From Selenomonas sp. oral taxon 892 str. F0426 (GTDB taxonomy: Bacteria > Bacillota > Negativicutes > Selenomonadales > Selenomonadaceae), in the NCBI RefSeq assembly GCF_000468035.1, contig NZ_KI260539.1:146718-210717 (forward strand): DNA of 64,000 bases, given 5' to 3'. The notes below the pieces were generated by a model. That model ran no database searches. It was not told where the DNA came from and saw nothing but the letters and a program-made list of their open reading frames with translations. Below are positions 4,194-59,696 of this stretch, one piece after another. How positions within the stretch are numbered: the first letter of the stretch is position 1; each line of letters begins with the position of its first letter. Both the position numbers and the translations under genes were made by a program.

Positions 4194-5480
4194 ATGGCAG
4201 ATCAGAAACACATTGTCATCGTCGGAGCTGGTTTTGGAGGCGTGACCCTCGCCAAAGAGCTTGCCAAGGAAAATGTGCGTGTTACTCTTGTGGATCGGCA
4301 TAACTATCATCTGTTTCAGCCGCTGCTCTATCAGGTGAGTACGGCAGTACTTTCAGCCTCGGAGATTGCGTACCCAACACGCCAATTCTTCAAGAACAAC
4401 CCGAATGTAAATTTCTATATGTCCAAAGCACTGGACATCGATCAGGATCGCCGTGTACTCATCACGAAGCACGGCGAGATCTCCTATGACTATCTAGTGC
4501 TCGCGGCCGGTGCGACAACAAACTTCTTCGGCAACAAGAGCGTTGAGCGCAATTCCTATGCGATGAAGACGCTGCAGGAGGCGATTGCACTGCGCGGTCA
4601 TTTCATCCATGAGTTCGAGCGTGCCGCGCGCAAGTCAGGGCCAGATCAGCGCGAGGCGCGTCAGCGTCATCTGAACTTTGTCATTGTCGGCGGCGGAGCG
4701 ACGGGCATCGAGATGGCGGGGGCATTGATGGAGCTCATTGAGGTCTTCAAAAAGGAGTTCCATACGATTGACTTCAATGAGGTTCACGTTATGCTTCTTG
4801 AGGCGATGGGGACGGTTCTCCCCATGGTGCCGCCAGATCTGCAGCAGCATACGATCGATGTTCTGCGCAAACGAGGCGTGGATGTCCGTCTTAACACAGC
4901 CGTCACGGAGTACGACGGCAACGATCTAACACTTGGAAATGGCGAGATCATTCCGACCAAGACGGTGATCTGGGCGGCAGGTGTGCGTGCACAGGGCTTT
5001 ATCAAGAATTGCGGCAGCGAGGTGGATCGTGCGGGGCGCGTGATTGTCGAGGAGAATCTGCTTGTCAAGGGCAGTGACCGCGTGTTTGCCATCGGCGACT
5101 GTGCAAACTTCCAGCATGGCGGCTTGGAGCGCCCGCTTCCAACCGTTGCACCTGTGGCGACCCAACAGGCTGTGCTGGCTAAAAAGAATATCATGGCACT
5201 GATTGCAGGCAAAACGCCCGATCAGCTTTCAAAGTTTACGTATCATGATGTGGGGGCGATGGCGACGATCGGAAAAGGCGAGGCCGTCATGGAGGGGCCG
5301 ATCCCTGGGCTTGGGATTGTGATGAAGGCAAAGGGCTTCATCGCATGGTTTGCCTGGATGGTCGTTCACCTCATCCGCCTCGCAGGAAAGTATGCGGATT
5401 TCACAGTCTCCATCAAGTGGATCTGGAATTTCTTCTTCGGCACCCGTCTCGCACGCATCATTCACAGTAAATTGGAGTAA
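4194..5480 (+). CDS. ndh: Type II NADH dehydrogenase (NDH-2)
   Basis: The protein (428 residues) starts at ATG 4194, with AAGGAG at 4177-4182; an in-frame GTG at 4182 overlaps that site and is less likely. There are two Rossmann dinucleotide motifs: VGAGFGG near the N-terminus (FAD) and IVGGGATGIEMAG around residue 165 (NADH). The quinone-site segment FQPLLYQVSTAVLS and the FAD-binding VFAIGDCA with PTVAPVATQQA complete the family set. Amphipathic C-terminal helices (AWFAWMVVHLIRLAG) anchor it to the membrane. It oxidises NADH with menaquinone without pumping protons. The upstream region (4002-4193) is AT-rich and probably holds its promoter. Confidence 0.92.
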   Translation: MADQKHIVIVGAGFGGVTLAKELAKENVRVTLVDRHNYHLFQPLLYQVSTAVLSASEIAYPTRQFFKNNPNVNFYMSKALDIDQDRRVLITKHGEISYDYLVLAAGATTNFFGNKSVERNSYAMKTLQEAIALRGHFIHEFERAARKSGPDQREARQRHLNFVIVGGGATGIEMAGALMELIEVFKKEFHTIDFNEVHVMLLEAMGTVLPMVPPDLQQHTIDVLRKRGVDVRLNTAVTEYDGNDLTLGNGEIIPTKTVIWAAGVRAQGFIKNCGSEVDRAGRVIVEENLLVKGSDRVFAIGDCANFQHGGLERPLPTVAPVATQQAVLAKKNIMALIAGKTPDQLSKFTYHDVGAMATIGKGEAVMEGPIPGLGIVMKAKGFIAWFAWMVVHLIRLAGKYADFTVSIKWIWNFFFGTRLARIIHSKLE

Positions 5481-5483
5481 TAC

Positions 5484-5512
5484 TTGCACCCTGTGCTGTT
5501 TTATGCTATACT
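5484..5512 (+). promoter_or_regulatory. Sigma-A type promoter for rpmE
   Basis: TTGCAC (5484-5489) and TATACT (5507-5512) are separated by exactly 17 bases. Transcription would start near 5519, giving a leader of about 110 bases before rpmE. Confidence 0.75.
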
Positions 5513-5519
5513 TGCGCGG

Positions 5520-5616
5520 TAATGAACGCAGGGCGTTTGTTTCCATGACTCGTTCTCGGCAAGACAGCCGAGTTCAACCAAGCGTGCACAAGCGTGCTTG
5601 TATCCGGCAAAAGAAA
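5520..5616 (+). ncRNA. Structured 5' leader of rpmE (candidate ribosomal-protein leader)
   Basis: The leader between the promoter and the rpmE ribosome site can form AACGC/GCGTT (5525-5529 with 5533-5537) and CTCGGC/GCCGAG (5555-5560 with 5567-5572), and carries a direct repeat AAGCGTGC near 5580-5600. Leaders of L31 genes are autoregulatory in several bacterial groups. That this is such an element is inference only. Confidence 0.3.
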
Positions 5617-5630
5617 CGAGGTGTATTTAC

Positions 5631-5831
5631 ATGAAAGAAGGCATTCATCCCGAGTTCTTCGAGGCGACGGTGACGTGTGGCTGCGGCAATACGTTCACGA
5701 CCGGCTCGACGAAGCAGGATCTGCGTATCGACGTCTGCTCGAAGTGCCATCCGTTCTTCACGGGGCGTCAGCGCGACGTTCAGGCGGGCGGACGCATCGA
5801 GAAGTTCCAGAAGCGTTACGCGCGAAAATAG
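5631..5831 (+). CDS. rpmE: Ribosomal protein L31 (zinc-binding, C+ form)
   Basis: This 66-residue protein starts at ATG 5631 after an ACGAGGTG site; upstream in-frame starts would add a non-homologous extension. Full-length L31 is recognisable from [37 protein letters not shown] and a basic end (FQKRYARK). The four zinc cysteines are present (C16, C18, C36, C39), so it is the zinc-containing form rather than the zinc-starvation paralogue. Its own promoter lies upstream and a terminator follows, so it is probably transcribed alone. Confidence 0.95.
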
Positions 5832-5884
5832 CAGCGTAGGTGAGGCGCACTGCGCCTTGCCTCTTCGCCGCACGACAACAGGGA

Positions 5885-5924
5885 GAGGCTATTGTACGAG
5901 AGATCGTGCAATAGCCTCTTTTTT
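5885..5924 (+). terminator. Rho-independent terminator after rpmE
   Basis: A 15-bp stem with one G-T pair (5885-5899 with 5904-5918) and a GAGA loop is followed by TTTTTT. Confidence 0.9.
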
Positions 5925-5943
5925 GATATAGTAAGGAAATCCT

Positions 5944-6858
5944 ATGCCAAAGAAAATAACTGACCTTGCGGTCGGCGGGCAGGCGGTCATTGAGGGGGTC
6001 ATGATGCGCGATGCTGCAAAGACCGCGACCGCCGTGCGCCTTCCGAATGGAGAGATCGAGGTGGAGACGCATTCCGTCACCTCCATTCGCGACCGCTATC
6101 CCGTGCTGAACTTGCCGCTCATCCGTGGTTCCGTCATCATGGTGGAGTCCCTCGTTATCGGCATGCGTGCCCTCTCGTTCTCTGCACAGGCGGCGGGCGA
6201 GGAGGATGAGCAGATGACAAAGAAGGAGATTGCGATGACAATCATCTTCGCGCTCGTTCTCGCAAGTGTACTCTTCATTATCATTCCGACGGGAGCAGCA
6301 CATCTCGCGGCGGCGTATACGGATGATCCCATCGTTTTCAATCTGATCGAGGGCGGCATTCGTCTCGCGGTGTTTCTCCTCTACATCTGGGGGATCTCGT
6401 TCATGGACGGTATTCGCCGTGTTTTCCAGTATCATGGCGCGGAGCACAAGACCATCCACTGCTATGAGGCGGGGCAGGCGCTGACGGTGGAGAATGTGCA
6501 GGCATTTCCACGCCTGCATCCGCGCTGCGGTACAAATTTTTTACTGATCGTTATGGTCGTCGCTATTGTTTTTCATGTGTTCTTCGGCTGGCCCGACCTC
6601 TGGCTGCGCATCCTCTCCCGACTCGCCGTGCTGCCGATCGTTGCGGGCGTTTCCTACGAGATCATTCGGTTTGCAGGACGCAGCGAGAACCGCCTCATCC
6701 ACATCTTGATTGCGCCGGGGCTGTGGCTGCAGTATCTGACGACGCGCCCGCCCGCCGATGAGATGGTTGAGGTCGCGATTGAAAGCCTCAAGGCAGTACT
6801 CCCGCCTGAGGATATCCCAGAAGGCAGTGGAAACTATCGAAAGGAAGTAACGTGTTAA
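5944..6858 (+). CDS. DUF1385 (YqhQ-like) membrane protein
   Basis: The protein (304 residues) starts at ATG 5944. The DUF1385 signature is clear: [12 protein letters not shown] near the start, then [15 protein letters not shown], a conserved [10 protein letters not shown], and VAGVSYEI with several membrane segments. The family has no established biochemical function. Here, as in many Firmicutes, it lies directly before prfA and prmC. Its stop overlaps the prfA GTG by 7 bases (6852-6858), indicating translational coupling within one operon. Confidence 0.9.
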
Positions 6859-7916
6859 GCAAACTGAATGCCGTTGCGGATAAATATCATGAGCTAGAGG
6901 CACTTCTCAGCGATCCCTCTGTGATGGCGGATATGGAAAAGTGGCAGCGCTATACGCGCGAGCATGCGGCGCTTACACCGATCATCGAGGCGTACGACGC
7001 CTATCGACAGGCGCTCGCGACCATCGAAGAGGATAAGGAGATGCTCGCTGAGGCGGATGCCGAGATGAAGGAAATGCTCGCCGAGGAGATTGCAGAGGCA
7101 GAGGCAGAGCGTGATCGTCTCGCGGAACAGATGCCGATCCTTCTCCTTCCGCGCGACCCGAACGATGATAAGAATGTCATCGTCGAGATACGCGGCGGCG
7201 TGGGCGGGGAGGAGGCGGCGCTCTTTGCTGCGAGCCTTTTTCGGATGTATGCGCGTTATGCCGAGCGGCAGGGCTGGCGGACGGAGATTCTCAGCAGCAA
7301 TCCAACCGAGATCGGCGGCTTTAAGGAGGTTTCCTTTCTTGTCAATGGTGCAGGCGCATACAGCCGTCTGAAATACGAGAGCGGGACGCACCGCGTGCAG
7401 CGCATCCCCGTCACGGAGTCGGGGGGGCGTATCCATACATCCGCTGTCACAGTCGCAGTGCTCCCCGAGGCGGAGGAGGTCGAGGTCACGGTCGATCCGA
7501 ATGATCTGCGCATCGACACCTACTGTGCCTCAGGCGCCGGCGGACAGTATGTCAACCGTACGGAGACGGCGATCCGCATCACGCATATCCCGACGGGCAT
7601 TGTTGTGCAGTGCCAGGATGAAAAGTCCCAGCTCAAGAATCGTGAGAAGGCGATGAAGGTACTCCGTGCACGACTCTATGACCGTGCACAGCAGGAGCAG
7701 GCGGATGCTGTTGCTGCCGATCGGCGCAGCCAGGTCGGTTCGGGTGACCGCAGTGAGCGCATCCGCACGTATAATTTTCCGCAGGGGCGCGTGACCGATC
7801 ACCGCATTGGGCTGACACTTTACAAGATCGATGCGGTTCTCGATGGTGAACTCGATGAAATCCTTGCGGGACTCATCACAGCGGATCAGGCAGAGCGTCT
7901 GAAACAGGTGAACTGA
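6852..7916 (+). CDS. prfA: Peptide chain release factor 1
   Basis: This 354-residue protein starts at GTG 6852, after AAGGAAG and overlapping the previous gene. It has an N-terminal acidic coiled domain (to about residue 95), a stop-codon recognition loop [14 protein letters not shown] (PxT at 186-188, the RF1 type reading UAG/UAA) and the peptidyl-tRNA hydrolysis motif GGQ at 230-232. It terminates translation on the ribosome. The TGA overlaps the ATG of prmC, whose product methylates the GGQ glutamine, a classic functional pairing. Confidence 0.97.
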
Positions 7917-54715: not shown

Positions 54716-55423
54716 ATGAGTACACCGCATATTGCTGCCGAAAAGGGCGAGATCGCCGAGCGCATCCTGCTGCCGGGGGATCCGCTCCGCGCGAAGTTCA
54801 TCGCGGAGAATTTCTTGGAGGGGGCGAAGGAGTATACCTCCATCCGCAACATTCTAGGCTACACAGGCACGTACAAGGGCGTTCCCGTCTCCGTGCAGGG
54901 TACGGGCATGGGCATGCCGTCCATCTCCATCTATGTGAATGAGCTGATGGACTGCTACGGTGTGCAGAAGCTCATCCGCGTCGGTACCTGCGGCGGCATG
55001 CACGAGAAGGTAAAGCTGCGCGACGTATTCATCGCACAGGGCGCGACGACGGACTCAGGCATGATTCGGAGCATCTTCGGCGGCTCGATCAACTATGCGC
55101 CGCTCGCGGACTACGAGCTGCTCTCCGCCGCTGTGGAGAATGCAAAGAAGCTGAACCTCCCCGTGCGCGTCGGCAATGTCATCTCCGTCGACCGCTTTTA
55201 TGATGAAGAGATCGACAACGCGAAGCTGCGTCAGTACGGCGTGCTCGCGGTTGAGATGGAGGCGGCGGCGCTCTATACGCTCGCAGCGAAGTACGGACGG
55301 CAGGCGCTGGCGCTCTTCACCGTCAGCGACCATCTCCTCACGGGCGAGAAGTGTACGGCAGAGGAGCGGCAGACCACATTCAACGACATGATCAAGATTG
55401 CACTCGAAACGGCGATCGAATAA
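54716..55423 (+). CDS. deoD: Purine-nucleoside phosphorylase DeoD, copy 1
   Basis: The 235-residue enzyme starts at ATG 54716, five bases after GAGGAGAG. It is the hexameric DeoD type: [49 protein letters not shown], and active-site [12 protein letters not shown] and SDHLLTGE. It splits purine (deoxy)nucleosides with phosphate. A second copy at 56869 differs at only about 16 positions (roughly 93% identity by eye). It has its own promoter; the broken galK and galE lie between the copies. Confidence 0.96.
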
Positions 55424-55466
55424 ACGACAACAGTACTAGTAACTGCCGTGCAAATGGATTTTTGTA

Positions 55467-55839
55467 ATGCAACGTGTGATTCTGAACGACGAACTTGCAC
55501 CGAGCATTGACATGATAGAGGTTGTAAAGCTTGCACAGAAGGCGGAGAATCAGTTTGTCGGCATGAATCTGGTATCATGGATCAGTTCGCCGTTGGCATG
55601 GGACAGAAGGACTGCGCGACGATTACGAGGTGACGGGGCCTGCGCTGGATACGCGCGCGGAGGGCAGGAGAGCGTGCTTGGTTTTCGCGTATGACGGGCG
55701 GCTTTGGGGCTGTACGGTCTGCATTGTGCGCGATGAGGCGATCCCTGCGTTTGAGAAGAACATTGGCCTATATGGAAAAGATCGGTTATGCGCCGAGCGT
55801 CTATGCGGCAAAGACGGTGCGCGCCGTCTCTAAGAGCAA
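55467..55839 (+). pseudogene. galK: Decayed galactokinase remnant (galK)
   Basis: Pieces of galactokinase are scattered over frames in this 429-base gap. Near 55470-55566 one frame reads LNDELAPSIDMIEVVKLAQ and KAENQFVGMN, and then another frame gives GIMDQFAVGMGQKDCA, the conserved GHMP substrate-site segment. It jumps directly to LRDDYEVTGPALDT, a C-terminal segment, so most of the middle is deleted. The end is split among frames: ESVLGFR, MTGGFG, GCTVCIVRDEAIPAFEKNI, AYMEKIGYAPSVYAAKT and DGARRL. At least four frameshifts and one internal deletion are needed. It lies just before galE, its usual partner. Confidence 0.85.
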
Positions 55840-55851
55840 AAGGAGTATGTT

Positions 55852-56841
55852 ATGGCAGTATTGGTATGCGGCGGGGCAGGGTACATCGGCTCTCATGCCG
55901 TGCACGCGCTCATCGAAAAAGGTGAAGCGGTCGTTGTTGTCGATAATCTTCAGACGGGGCATCGCGGTGCTCTGAACCCTGCGGCGAAGTTCTACGAGGG
56001 TGATATTCGCGACGCCTCCGTGCTCGACAAGATTTTCACAGAAAACAAGATTGAGGCGGTCATCCACTTTGCAGCGAATTCCCTCGTCGGCGAGAGCATG
56101 GAAAAGCCGCTGCTCTACTTCAACAACAATGTCTACGGAATGCAGGTGCTGCTTGAGGGCATGGTGCGTCATGGCGTGGACAAAATCGTCTTCTCCTCGA
56201 CAGCGGCAGTGTATGGCGAGCCGAAACGTGTGCCGATTCATGAGGATGACGAAACGAACCCGACGAACACCTACGGCGAGACAAAGCTCACGATGGAGAA
56301 GATGATGAAGTGGGTGAGCCGCGCAAATGGTGTGCACTATGTCTCTCTGCGCTACTTCAATGCAGCGGGGGCGTTGCCGGATGGCTCGATCGGCGAGGCG
56401 CATATGACGGAGACGCATCTCATTCCGCTCATCCTCCAGGTGCCGATAGGAAAGCGTGATCATATTACTATTTATGGGAATGACTATGAGACACCGGACG
56501 GAACATGTCTGCGCGACTATATCCATGTGGTAGACCTTGCGGATGCGCATGTGTGCGCACTTGAATATCTCCGAAAGGGCGGCACGAGTGACATCTTCAA
56601 CCTTGGCAACGGCCAGGGCTTCTCCGTGCGTGAGATGATCGCCGCGGCCGAGAAGGCGACGGGGCGTGCAATCAAGGCGGAGATCGGCGCGCGCCGCGCA
56701 GGAGATCCCGCGCAGCTCGTCGCCTCGAGTGAGAAGGCACGGGCTGTGCTTGGCTGGAACCCCGTGTATACGGATGTGGAGCAGGTCATCGGCACGGCAT
56801 GGAAATGGCACGAGAGCCATCCGAACGGCTATGGTGACTGA
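55852..56841 (+). CDS. galE: UDP-glucose 4-epimerase
   Basis: The 329-residue protein starts at ATG 55852 after AAAGGAG. The extended SDR fold shows GGAGYIGSH, VDNLQTGHRGAL, the catalytic Ser in SSTAAVYG and YxxxK in YGETKLTMEKM, followed by LRYFNAAGA and TPDGTCLRDYIHVVDLADAH. It interconverts UDP-glucose and UDP-galactose. It is intact although the galK in front of it is destroyed, so it probably now serves glycan synthesis rather than galactose catabolism. Confidence 0.95.
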   Translation: MAVLVCGGAGYIGSHAVHALIEKGEAVVVVDNLQTGHRGALNPAAKFYEGDIRDASVLDKIFTENKIEAVIHFAANSLVGESMEKPLLYFNNNVYGMQVLLEGMVRHGVDKIVFSSTAAVYGEPKRVPIHEDDETNPTNTYGETKLTMEKMMKWVSRANGVHYVSLRYFNAAGALPDGSIGEAHMTETHLIPLILQVPIGKRDHITIYGNDYETPDGTCLRDYIHVVDLADAHVCALEYLRKGGTSDIFNLGNGQGFSVREMIAAAEKATGRAIKAEIGARRAGDPAQLVASSEKARAVLGWNPVYTDVEQVIGTAWKWHESHPNGYGD

Positions 56842-56868: not shown

Positions 56869-57576
56869 ATGAGTTCACTGCATATTGCTGCCGAAAAGGG
56901 CGAGATCGCCGAGCGTATTCTGCTGCCGGGCGATCCGCTGCGCGCAAAGTTCATCGCAGAGAATTTCCTCGAGGGGGTGAAGGAATATACCTCCATTCGC
57001 AACATCCTCGGCTATACGGGCACCTATCACGGTGTTCCTGTCTCGGTACAGGGGACGGGCATGGGGATGCCTTCCATCTCCATCTATGCCAATGAGCTGA
57101 TGGACTACTACGGTGTACAGAAACTCATCCGCGTCGGCACCTGCGGCGGCATGCATGAGAAGGTGAAGCTGCGCGACGTATTCATTGCGCAGGGGGCAAC
57201 GACGGACTCCTCCATGATCCGCAACATCTTCGGCGGGGCAATCAACTATGCGCCGCTCGCCGACTATGAACTTCTCTCGGCTGCTGTGGAGCATGCAAAG
57301 AAGCTGAATCTCCCCGCGCGCGTCGGCAATGTCATCTCCGTCGACCGTTTCTATGACGAAGAGATCGATAATGCGAAACTCCGTCAGTACGGCGTGCTTG
57401 CCGTGGAGATGGAGGCGGCGGCACTCTATACGCTCGCAGCAAAATTCGGCCGTCAGGCGCTTGCCCTCTTCACCGTCAGCGACCATCTCCTCACAGGAGA
57501 GCGGTGCACGGCGGAGGAGCGGCAGACAACCTTCAGTGACATGATCAAGATCGCGCTTGAGACGGCGGTTTCCTAA
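56869..57576 (+). CDS. deoD: Purine-nucleoside phosphorylase DeoD, copy 2
   Basis: The 235-residue enzyme starts at ATG 56869 after ATAGGAGAA, 27 bases behind galE. Active-site segments equal copy 1: [46 protein letters not shown]. Differences are mostly conservative (for example K54H, V74A, C79Y). Both copies look functional. It is likely co-transcribed with galE and ends at a strong terminator. Confidence 0.96.
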
Positions 57577-57595: not shown

Positions 57596-57625
57596 AAAAA
57601 GGACATCTGCAGAGATGTCCTTTTT
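57596..57625 (+). terminator. Rho-independent terminator after the second deoD
   Basis: A 13-bp perfect stem AAAAAGGACATCT / AGATGTCCTTTTT (57596-57608 with 57613-57625), loop GCAG; it is symmetrical and can work in both directions. Confidence 0.93.
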
Positions 57626-57693
57626 CTTATGGCGAAAACTCTATACAAATTACGGAAAGTGTACAGTAACGGATATATAAATGAGAATGTCTC

Positions 57694-57721
57694 TTGATTG
57701 ATGCTTCCTTCGTGCTAAAAT
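57694..57721 (+). promoter_or_regulatory. Promoter of the metal ATPase gene
   Basis: TTGATT (57694-57699) and TAAAAT (57716-57721) have a 16-base spacer. The -10 overlaps the ATG at 57720, so that ATG could not be the start codon of this transcript. Confidence 0.6.
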
Positions 57722-57803
57722 GAGATATATTTTATTGGGGGCTTCAACGCATGAAGCGAAAAGGGTGAAGTCATTTCGTCCGTGCAGGGAAGGGGGATTT
57801 ATA

Positions 57804-59696
57804 CTGAAAAAAATCAATGATTTTTTGGCAGGACTGCCAATGACAATTGTTGCGGGCATCTTTCTGCTCCTGGATTTTATTCCCCATGTGACGGGCGGTT
57901 TCGGTGGAACGCAGCCTCCGGTGCTCCTCCTGCCGTTTGATCCCGCGTGGGTAAGCATTGTGATCAGCGGGATCCCCCTGCTCTATCTTGCCGTTTGGCG
58001 CATGATTTATAACCCGGGCATCCGCAAAATATCCTCTGCGCTCCTGATCTGCATCGCCATGTTCGCAGCGATCGCCATCGGCGATCTGTTTGCCGCGGGC
58101 GAGGTCGTATTCATCATGGCGATCGGTGCGCTGCTCGAAGAGGCGACAGCGAACCGCGCGAAACAGGGACTGAAGAAGCTCATTCAGCTCGCTCCGACGC
58201 AGGGCCGCAGGATCCGCAGCGGTGCGGAAGAAATGATTGCGGCGGAGGAGATTCGGCAGGGGGATGTGCTGCGCATTCTCCCCGGCGAGATCATTCCGGT
58301 CGACGGGATCGTTTTGTGCGGAGAGACCTCGGTCGATCAGTCGATCATGACAGGGGAGTCCATTCCAATCGACAAGAGTACGGGGGAAGAAGTCTTCTGC
58401 GGGACGATCAACTGCTTTGGATCGATTGATATTTCCGCGACGAAGGTCGGCGCAGACAGTTCGCTGCAAAAGCTGATCCGCATGGTACAGGATGCCGAAA
58501 AAAAGCAGGCGCCGATGCAGCGCATTGCAGACCGCTGGGCAAGCTGGCTTGTTCCTGTGGCACTTCTGATCGCAGTAGGCGCATATGTCGCTACGGGCAA
58601 CATCATTACCGCCGTGACCATTCTGGTCGTTTTCTGCCCGTGTGCACTGATTCTCGCGACGCCGACGGCAGTTATGGCGGCCATCGGACAGGCGGCGAGA
58701 TACGGCGTGATCATCAAGTCCGGTGAAGCACTCGAGGCGATGGGCAGGGCGGATACCGTTGCATTTGACAAGACCGGGACACTGACCTATGGACGACTGG
58801 GCGTGAGCGATATAATTTCGTTCGATCCGCAGATTGACGCGGCAGAACTGCTGTCGCTGGCGGCCTCTGCCGAGTCGAAAAGTGAGCACCCCCTAGGCAG
58901 GGCGGTTGCTGCGCATGCAAAGGAACAGGGGATTCCCGCTGCTGCACCGGATATGTTTCAAATGTCGGTGGGGAAGGGCGTCTGCGCGGAGGTGAATCAG
59001 CGCAGAGTTCTCTGCGGGAATGAAAAGTTCCTTTCAGAGAACGGAATCTCCATTGGGACGCCGGAGCGTTCTGTCCTGGAGCGTCTGCGTATGCAGGGGA
59101 AGGTGTCGATTCTCGTGGCGGAGCAGGACGTCTGCATCGGAGTAATTGCTCTCTCTGACGTTGTGCGGCCGGAGGCGCAGGATGCAGTTGCCCGGCTGTT
59201 GGATATGAATACGCGTGTAGTCCTGCTCACCGGCGATCATCAGCAGACCGCACAGTATTTTGCACACCGGCTCGGCATCGCAGAAGTGCGGGCAGAGCTC
59301 CTGCCGGAGGAAAAGGTGCAGAGCATCGTGCAGCTGCAGGAGGAAAAACATACCGTCTGCATGATCGGCGACGGCGTGAATGATGCGCCGTCGCTGAAAA
59401 TGGCGGATGTCAGCGTCGCCATGGGGAGCATGGGCAGCGATATTGCCGTCGAGGCGGCAGATATTGCACTCATGAGCGACGACATTTCGAAGGTTGTGTA
59501 CTTAAAGCGGCTCTCCAACGCAGCCGTTCAAACGATTAAGCTGAGCATTGCTCTCTCGATGTGCATCAACTTTGCTGCGATTGTCCTTTCTCTGATGGAG
59601 CTGCTGACCCCGACCACGGGCGCATTGGTGCATAATGCCGGCTCGACCCTTGTGGTGATGATCGCCGCGCTGCTTTACAATCGAACATTTGAATAG
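57804..59696 (+). CDS. P1B-type heavy-metal transporting ATPase
   Basis: The open frame runs from ATG 57720, but the best ribosome site (AGGGGG, 57791-57796) points to CTG 57804, giving KKINDFLAGLPMTI after the start; GTG 57765 is a third option. From 57804 it has 630 residues. Motifs: TGES in the actuator domain, intramembrane CPCALILATPT (about 278), phosphorylated Asp in DKTGTLTYG (about 321), SEHPLGRAVAAH (about 359) and GDGVNDAPSLKMADVSVAMG. There is no N-terminal HMA or CXXC domain. CPC type with this core suggests Zn/Cd/Co or Cu export; the ion is undecided. Confidence 0.9.
   Translation: MKKINDFLAGLPMTIVAGIFLLLDFIPHVTGGFGGTQPPVLLLPFDPAWVSIVISGIPLLYLAVWRMIYNPGIRKISSALLICIAMFAAIAIGDLFAAGEVVFIMAIGALLEEATANRAKQGLKKLIQLAPTQGRRIRSGAEEMIAAEEIRQGDVLRILPGEIIPVDGIVLCGETSVDQSIMTGESIPIDKSTGEEVFCGTINCFGSIDISATKVGADSSLQKLIRMVQDAEKKQAPMQRIADRWASWLVPVALLIAVGAYVATGNIITAVTILVVFCPCALILATPTAVMAAIGQAARYGVIIKSGEALEAMGRADTVAFDKTGTLTYGRLGVSDIISFDPQIDAAELLSLAASAESKSEHPLGRAVAAHAKEQGIPAAAPDMFQMSVGKGVCAEVNQRRVLCGNEKFLSENGISIGTPERSVLERLRMQGKVSILVAEQDVCIGVIALSDVVRPEAQDAVARLLDMNTRVVLLTGDHQQTAQYFAHRLGIAEVRAELLPEEKVQSIVQLQEEKHTVCMIGDGVNDAPSLKMADVSVAMGSMGSDIAVEAADIALMSDDISKVVYLKRLSNAAVQTIKLSIALSMCINFAAIVLSLMELLTPTTGALVHNAGSTLVVMIAALLYNRTFE

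Follow-up and report, generated by a model that had tools for sequence, protein, structure and literature searches.

Decay of a Leloir pathway gene next to a retained galE has been described in Streptococcus infantarius, where a partial gal-lac operon carries a truncated galT adjoining galE, a second gal operon is intact and lactose use remains (PMC4051162). Within the Selenomonadaceae, clusters of galK, galE, galT and a regulator are found, to which lacZ, a GPH symporter and an alpha-galactosidase are added in oral Selenomonas and Centipeda species. We analyzed a 64,000-nucleotide stretch (the window) of the genome of Selenomonas sp. oral taxon 892 str. F0426. As in S. infantarius, a Leloir gene has decayed next to a retained galE, but the two lineages are distant, and S. 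infantarius has an intact second gal operon whereas F0426 has lost galK, galT and lacZ alike. The locus shares with the family clusters its position between htpX/deoD and purL, the galK-galE order and homologous pieces, yet its galK is a scar and every other island gene except galE is gone. Within the searchable literature, we found no paper that deals with galactose genes in these species. The locus appears to be a new case of a known process, ordinary gene decay, unusually well caught in the act.

Lactose and galactose genes across the genus

Genes for galK, galT, lacZ and an alpha-galactosidase-like glycoside hydrolase are all present in the same 10 of 14 genus genomes, and none of the four was found in the other four genomes (F0426, S. 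artemidis, S. noxia and strain F0473). The island order in the ten, read where the retrieved stretches reach far enough, is serA–htpX–deoD–cytidylate-kinase-like–GPH symporter–lacZ–galK–galE–galT–LacI-type regulator–alpha-galactosidase–purL; some genomes have additional genes behind htpX or deoD, and in C. periodontii deoD lies elsewhere. The names of the symporter, LacZ, galactokinase, GalT and the LacI-type regulator are those of NCBIfam; ‘alpha-galactosidase (GH36)’ and ‘cytidylate-kinase-like’ were assigned by reading the sequence, the NCBIfam match for alpha-galactosidase being weak. Because the galK–galE–galT–regulator order recurs widely across the family by synteny, we take the presence of these genes to be ancestral and their absence in F0426 to be a loss.

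S. artemidis, S. noxia and F0473 have the shorter order serA–htpX–galE–deoD–purL. F0473 has one more gene between htpX and galE (locus L128, oriented 4900-7212), which would encode a 770 aa protein that we named TonB-dependent-receptor-like from its sequence. Matches of 26 bp in S. noxia and F0473, with neither galE nor galK found within about 4 kb of them, were treated as chance. In one further genome (G006; loci L136, L233 and L234), galT and purL seem broken in searches. The breaks are runs of N at scaffold gaps, and we rejected these genes as pseudogenes; beside the gap in galT lies galT sequence in inverted copy, probably an assembly artefact.

A galK remnant between deoD1 and galE

Gene order in the F0426 genome is serA–htpX–deoD1–galK'–galE–deoD2–P-type ATPase–purL, and all features for which coordinates are given below lie on the + strand of the window. 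The intact purine-nucleoside phosphorylase gene deoD1 (54716-55423; NCBIfam DeoD), with 91% nucleotide identity to S. infelix deoD, corresponds to the copy that stands beside htpX in island-bearing relatives. It is followed by galK homology in broken frames across about 55458-55833, which close relatives match with their galK (E about 1e-15 in tblastn), by an intact galE (55852-56841) and, directly 3' of galE, by deoD2 (56869-57576), an intact second purine-nucleoside phosphorylase gene identified by NCBIfam DeoD and synteny. A gene for a heavy-metal P-type ATPase (57720-59696; TIGR01525) stands in place of galT, the regulator and alpha-galactosidase; none of the other genus members checked showed such a gene in the deoD–purL interval. 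The sequence-only reading had reported a frame-shattered galactokinase at 55467-55839, between deoD copies and ahead of an intact galE. Its placement is confirmed, both deoD genes and galE being intact, and the interval does contain the galK remnant, but its start falls a few codons inside the recognisable part. The galK peptide segments that it had named are present.

The tBLASTn search which that reading had suggested, with the intact galactokinase of S. massiliensis (391 aa) as query, returned four collinear pieces in three frames with E values of 1e-15 to 1e-14: aa 137-174 (55458-55571, frame 3), aa 175-192 (55571-55624, frame 2), aa 311-365 (55612-55764, frame 1) and aa 368-382 (55766-55810, frame 2). 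DNA identity to ten relatives is 77–80% across 55476-55619 and 74–76% across 55612-55848 in blastn, with E down to 1e-48; chance similarity to galK is ruled out by E values of about 1e-15 for protein and 1e-48 for DNA. Together with codon alignment, these searches divide the remnant in two. The first part (55458-55624) covers codons about 137-192 and is broken by a single-base frameshift; the second (55612-55833) begins near codon 311, reaches the old stop and carries several small indels. The two alignment blocks overlap at 55612-55619, on the short repeat CTGCGCGA, which in intact galK genes is present at both borders of a segment of about 367 bp, and we place the junction of an internal deletion there. 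The remnant lacks about 250 galactokinase codons, namely 1 to about 136 and 193-310. The segments in different frames and the large internal deletion, both noticed from the sequence alone, were thus borne out, the deletion measuring about 367 bp and having taken codons 193-310.

An uninterrupted frame of about 390 codons, as in galactokinases of the GHMP kinase type (TIGR00131, PRK05322, PF10509), was not found in the remnant, which starts near codon 137, and the N-terminal galactose-binding segment PF10509 has no match anywhere in the genome. At codon positions 1 and 2 the remnant differs from intact genes by about 0.11, compared with 0.02–0.06 among intact galK genes over the same columns; the excess of 0.048 (95% interval 0.010–0.089) across 95 strict, well-aligned codons indicates relaxed constraint. 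Collinear with intact galK and lying at the syntenic place, the interval 55458-55833 is, judged by its sequence, a genuine galK pseudogene. Decay without constraint would occupy roughly the last fifth of the F0426 lineage branch, about 18% (3–38%) by a rough estimate from raw distances, one slope and a short sequence (95 codons), and in this sense the loss is recent, as had been proposed.

Two other accounts of the broken frames carry very little weight. The assembly is a draft in 38 contigs, and an error of sequencing or assembly in an intact galK might be considered, but such an error does not explain the loss of about 250 codons together with several indels; other genes of the island have disappeared too, and codon positions 1 and 2 show raised divergence all along the remnant. 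We give this account practically no credence. Scarcely more probable is that the 75-aa open reading frame at 55467-55694 encodes a new small protein built from galK debris: the frame is open, but it crosses the frameshift and the deletion and departs from the galK frame.

Neither a second galK (PF10509 profile and galK protein search) nor galT (PF01087 profile and galT protein search) was found in the F0426 genome, whose 38-contig draft assembly is scored 99.99% complete and could in principle miss a gene. Searches of the genome for lacZ and alpha-galactosidase also gave no hit, and the symporter, galT and the regulator were not found at the locus. From the Leloir set of galK, galT and galE, galE alone is present. 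Galactose might still be used by a different path, for example the tagatose-6-phosphate route. The earlier suggestion to look for another galK and galT was followed, and its proposal that the Leloir route was lost while galE was retained is supported by this genome-wide result. It is correct but too narrow, in that the gene content supports a loss of the whole lactose/galactose island and not of galK alone.

Because the distribution of galK, galT, lacZ and alpha-galactosidase is all-or-none (10 of 14 genomes with them, and the four without galK lacking all four), we read the galK pseudogene as the relic of a lactose/galactose island (symporter, lacZ, galK, galE, galT, LacI-type regulator and alpha-galactosidase) between deoD and purL that was removed by deletions, with galE kept and read from deoD1; we put the probability of this reading at about 0.92. 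One deletion of about 6 kb would have brought mid-galK up against the 3' end of deoD1 and taken away the post-deoD terminator, its left junction lying at 55424-55457. The loss of another 367 bp or so between short repeats, plus small indels, would have worsened galK, the order of the deletions being the one we infer.

Number and mode of losses

Like F0426, the genomes of S. artemidis, S. noxia and F0473 have kept galE with deoD downstream and are without galK, galT, lacZ and alpha-galactosidase; unlike F0426, they have a single deoD at the locus instead of two, and a galK scar was not found in them. The galE-deoD order common to the four would suit one ancestral loss, and their grouping as a single clade is not rejected by the htpX tree (p 0.39) or the galE tree (p 0.35). 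It is, however, rejected by purL and serA together (p-AU 0.00085) and also by serA alone (p 0.011). The purL and serA tree places F0426 inside a nine-genome clade whose other members bear the island (100/100), and three changes of gal state are needed on it. We therefore consider a shared loss improbable.

A different mode of loss, compatible with the galK pseudogene, is that galE-deoD-purL DNA of an island-less relative recombined into an island-bearing chromosome, deoD2 replacing galT, the regulator and alpha-galactosidase, and that galK decayed afterwards in a pathway already broken. This is a real possibility, to which we would give somewhat less than even odds. The galE–deoD2 order is that of the island-less S. 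noxia, S. artemidis and F0473, and in gene order the locus is a mosaic of both arrangements; the galE-deoD spacer has a 12-base stretch, GATAGGAGAATT, in common with S. noxia at equal distance from the ATG. The two deoD genes are not joined as recent duplicates, the tree test allows deoD2 to group with S. noxia (p 0.44), and island genes appear mobile among species (galE dS 0.13 against purL 0.85 in one pair). Against this, sites in galE and deoD2 side mostly with island-bearing species, a clean mosaic breakpoint was not found, and the deoD tree does not resolve. The position of deoD2 after galE may instead be an ancestral order. deoD1 and deoD2 are 87% identical in nucleotides; an origin as a recent tandem duplicate is disfavoured (sister grouping lnL 28 worse, p-AU 0.059), and the galE dS of 1.30 gives no support to galE-deoD2 having come directly from S. 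noxia in recent time.

Divergence within the genus suggests that the island has been exchanged among oral Selenomonas and Centipeda species. Recombination seems common, galE and galK being far closer than purL or serA between some of the island-bearing species; in one pair (G012/G011), dS is 0.13–0.20 for galE and galK compared with 0.66–0.85 for purL and serA. The galE of F0426 shows species-level divergence from S. massiliensis (dS 0.95, with 0.97 for purL), as if the F0426 lineage had stood outside this exchange. Between S. flueggei and S. felix, purL has a dS of 0.75 although serA, htpX and deoD have 0.02–0.07, which suggests that purL or the purL region was replaced in one of the two.

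Retention and transcription of galE

GalE makes UDP-galactose, and galE may have been kept since the cell still needs this product for surface glycans. The gene passes the TIGR01179 cut-off of 262.3 in an intact frame with 441.7 bits, the nearest solved structure is 2c20, and purifying constraint is evident from a dN of about 0.06 against a dS of about 0.95 (compared with S. massiliensis). On profile match and conservation it is a UDP-glucose 4-epimerase, with predicted catalytic activity. Its C5-pocket residue, located by a conserved motif and with the position mapped via the E. coli enzyme, reads as Leu. In a published scheme, Leu at this place is the group 1 state, which predicts preference for UDP-Glc/UDP-Gal (PMC6668579), and the residue fits a role with these substrates. 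The lipid A of the former S. sputigena ATCC 33150 is reported to contain galactosamine, and the same paper mentions galactose as a lipid A sugar in Selenomonas (PMC13339959); these sugars give a hint only as to why galE is retained.

A terminator-like hairpin lies 3' of deoD in all nine island-bearing genomes tested. The stretch after deoD1 (55424-55457), unlike that in the island-bearing relatives checked, is without a terminator, with a hairpin z-score of +0.6 compared with −5.8 after S. massiliensis deoD. The terminator scan found none between deoD1 and galE, and the first strong intrinsic terminator after deoD1 follows deoD2 (57597-57626; hairpin z-score −5.5, T-rich tail). Any promoter that stood upstream of galK is gone from F0426. 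For deoD1, a presumed promoter (TTGCGT–17 nt–TATAAT) lies immediately before position 54716; it falls under the promoter-scan threshold and is by inspection common to S. infelix. Because the deletion would have taken the post-deoD terminator away, the deoD1 promoter probably drives galE today, within a putative deoD1-galK'-galE-deoD2 transcript.

More tentatively, and with considerable doubt on our part, the locus may be a preserved intermediate between the island-bearing and island-less states, in which galE was rescued by a deletion-driven fusion to a housekeeping transcript of nucleoside salvage, deoD1-galE-deoD2, oral Selenomonas having arrived at the same galE–deoD end state, or exchanged it, more than once. 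If this is true, the supply of UDP-galactose would have been decoupled from sugar induction. With galK read as the relic of a lost island, the case shows a biosynthetic gene, galE, outliving the catabolic operon that housed it. F0426 is predicted to be unable to live on either lactose or galactose via the Leloir route, unlike its close relatives, which would make for a testable niche difference in dental plaque.
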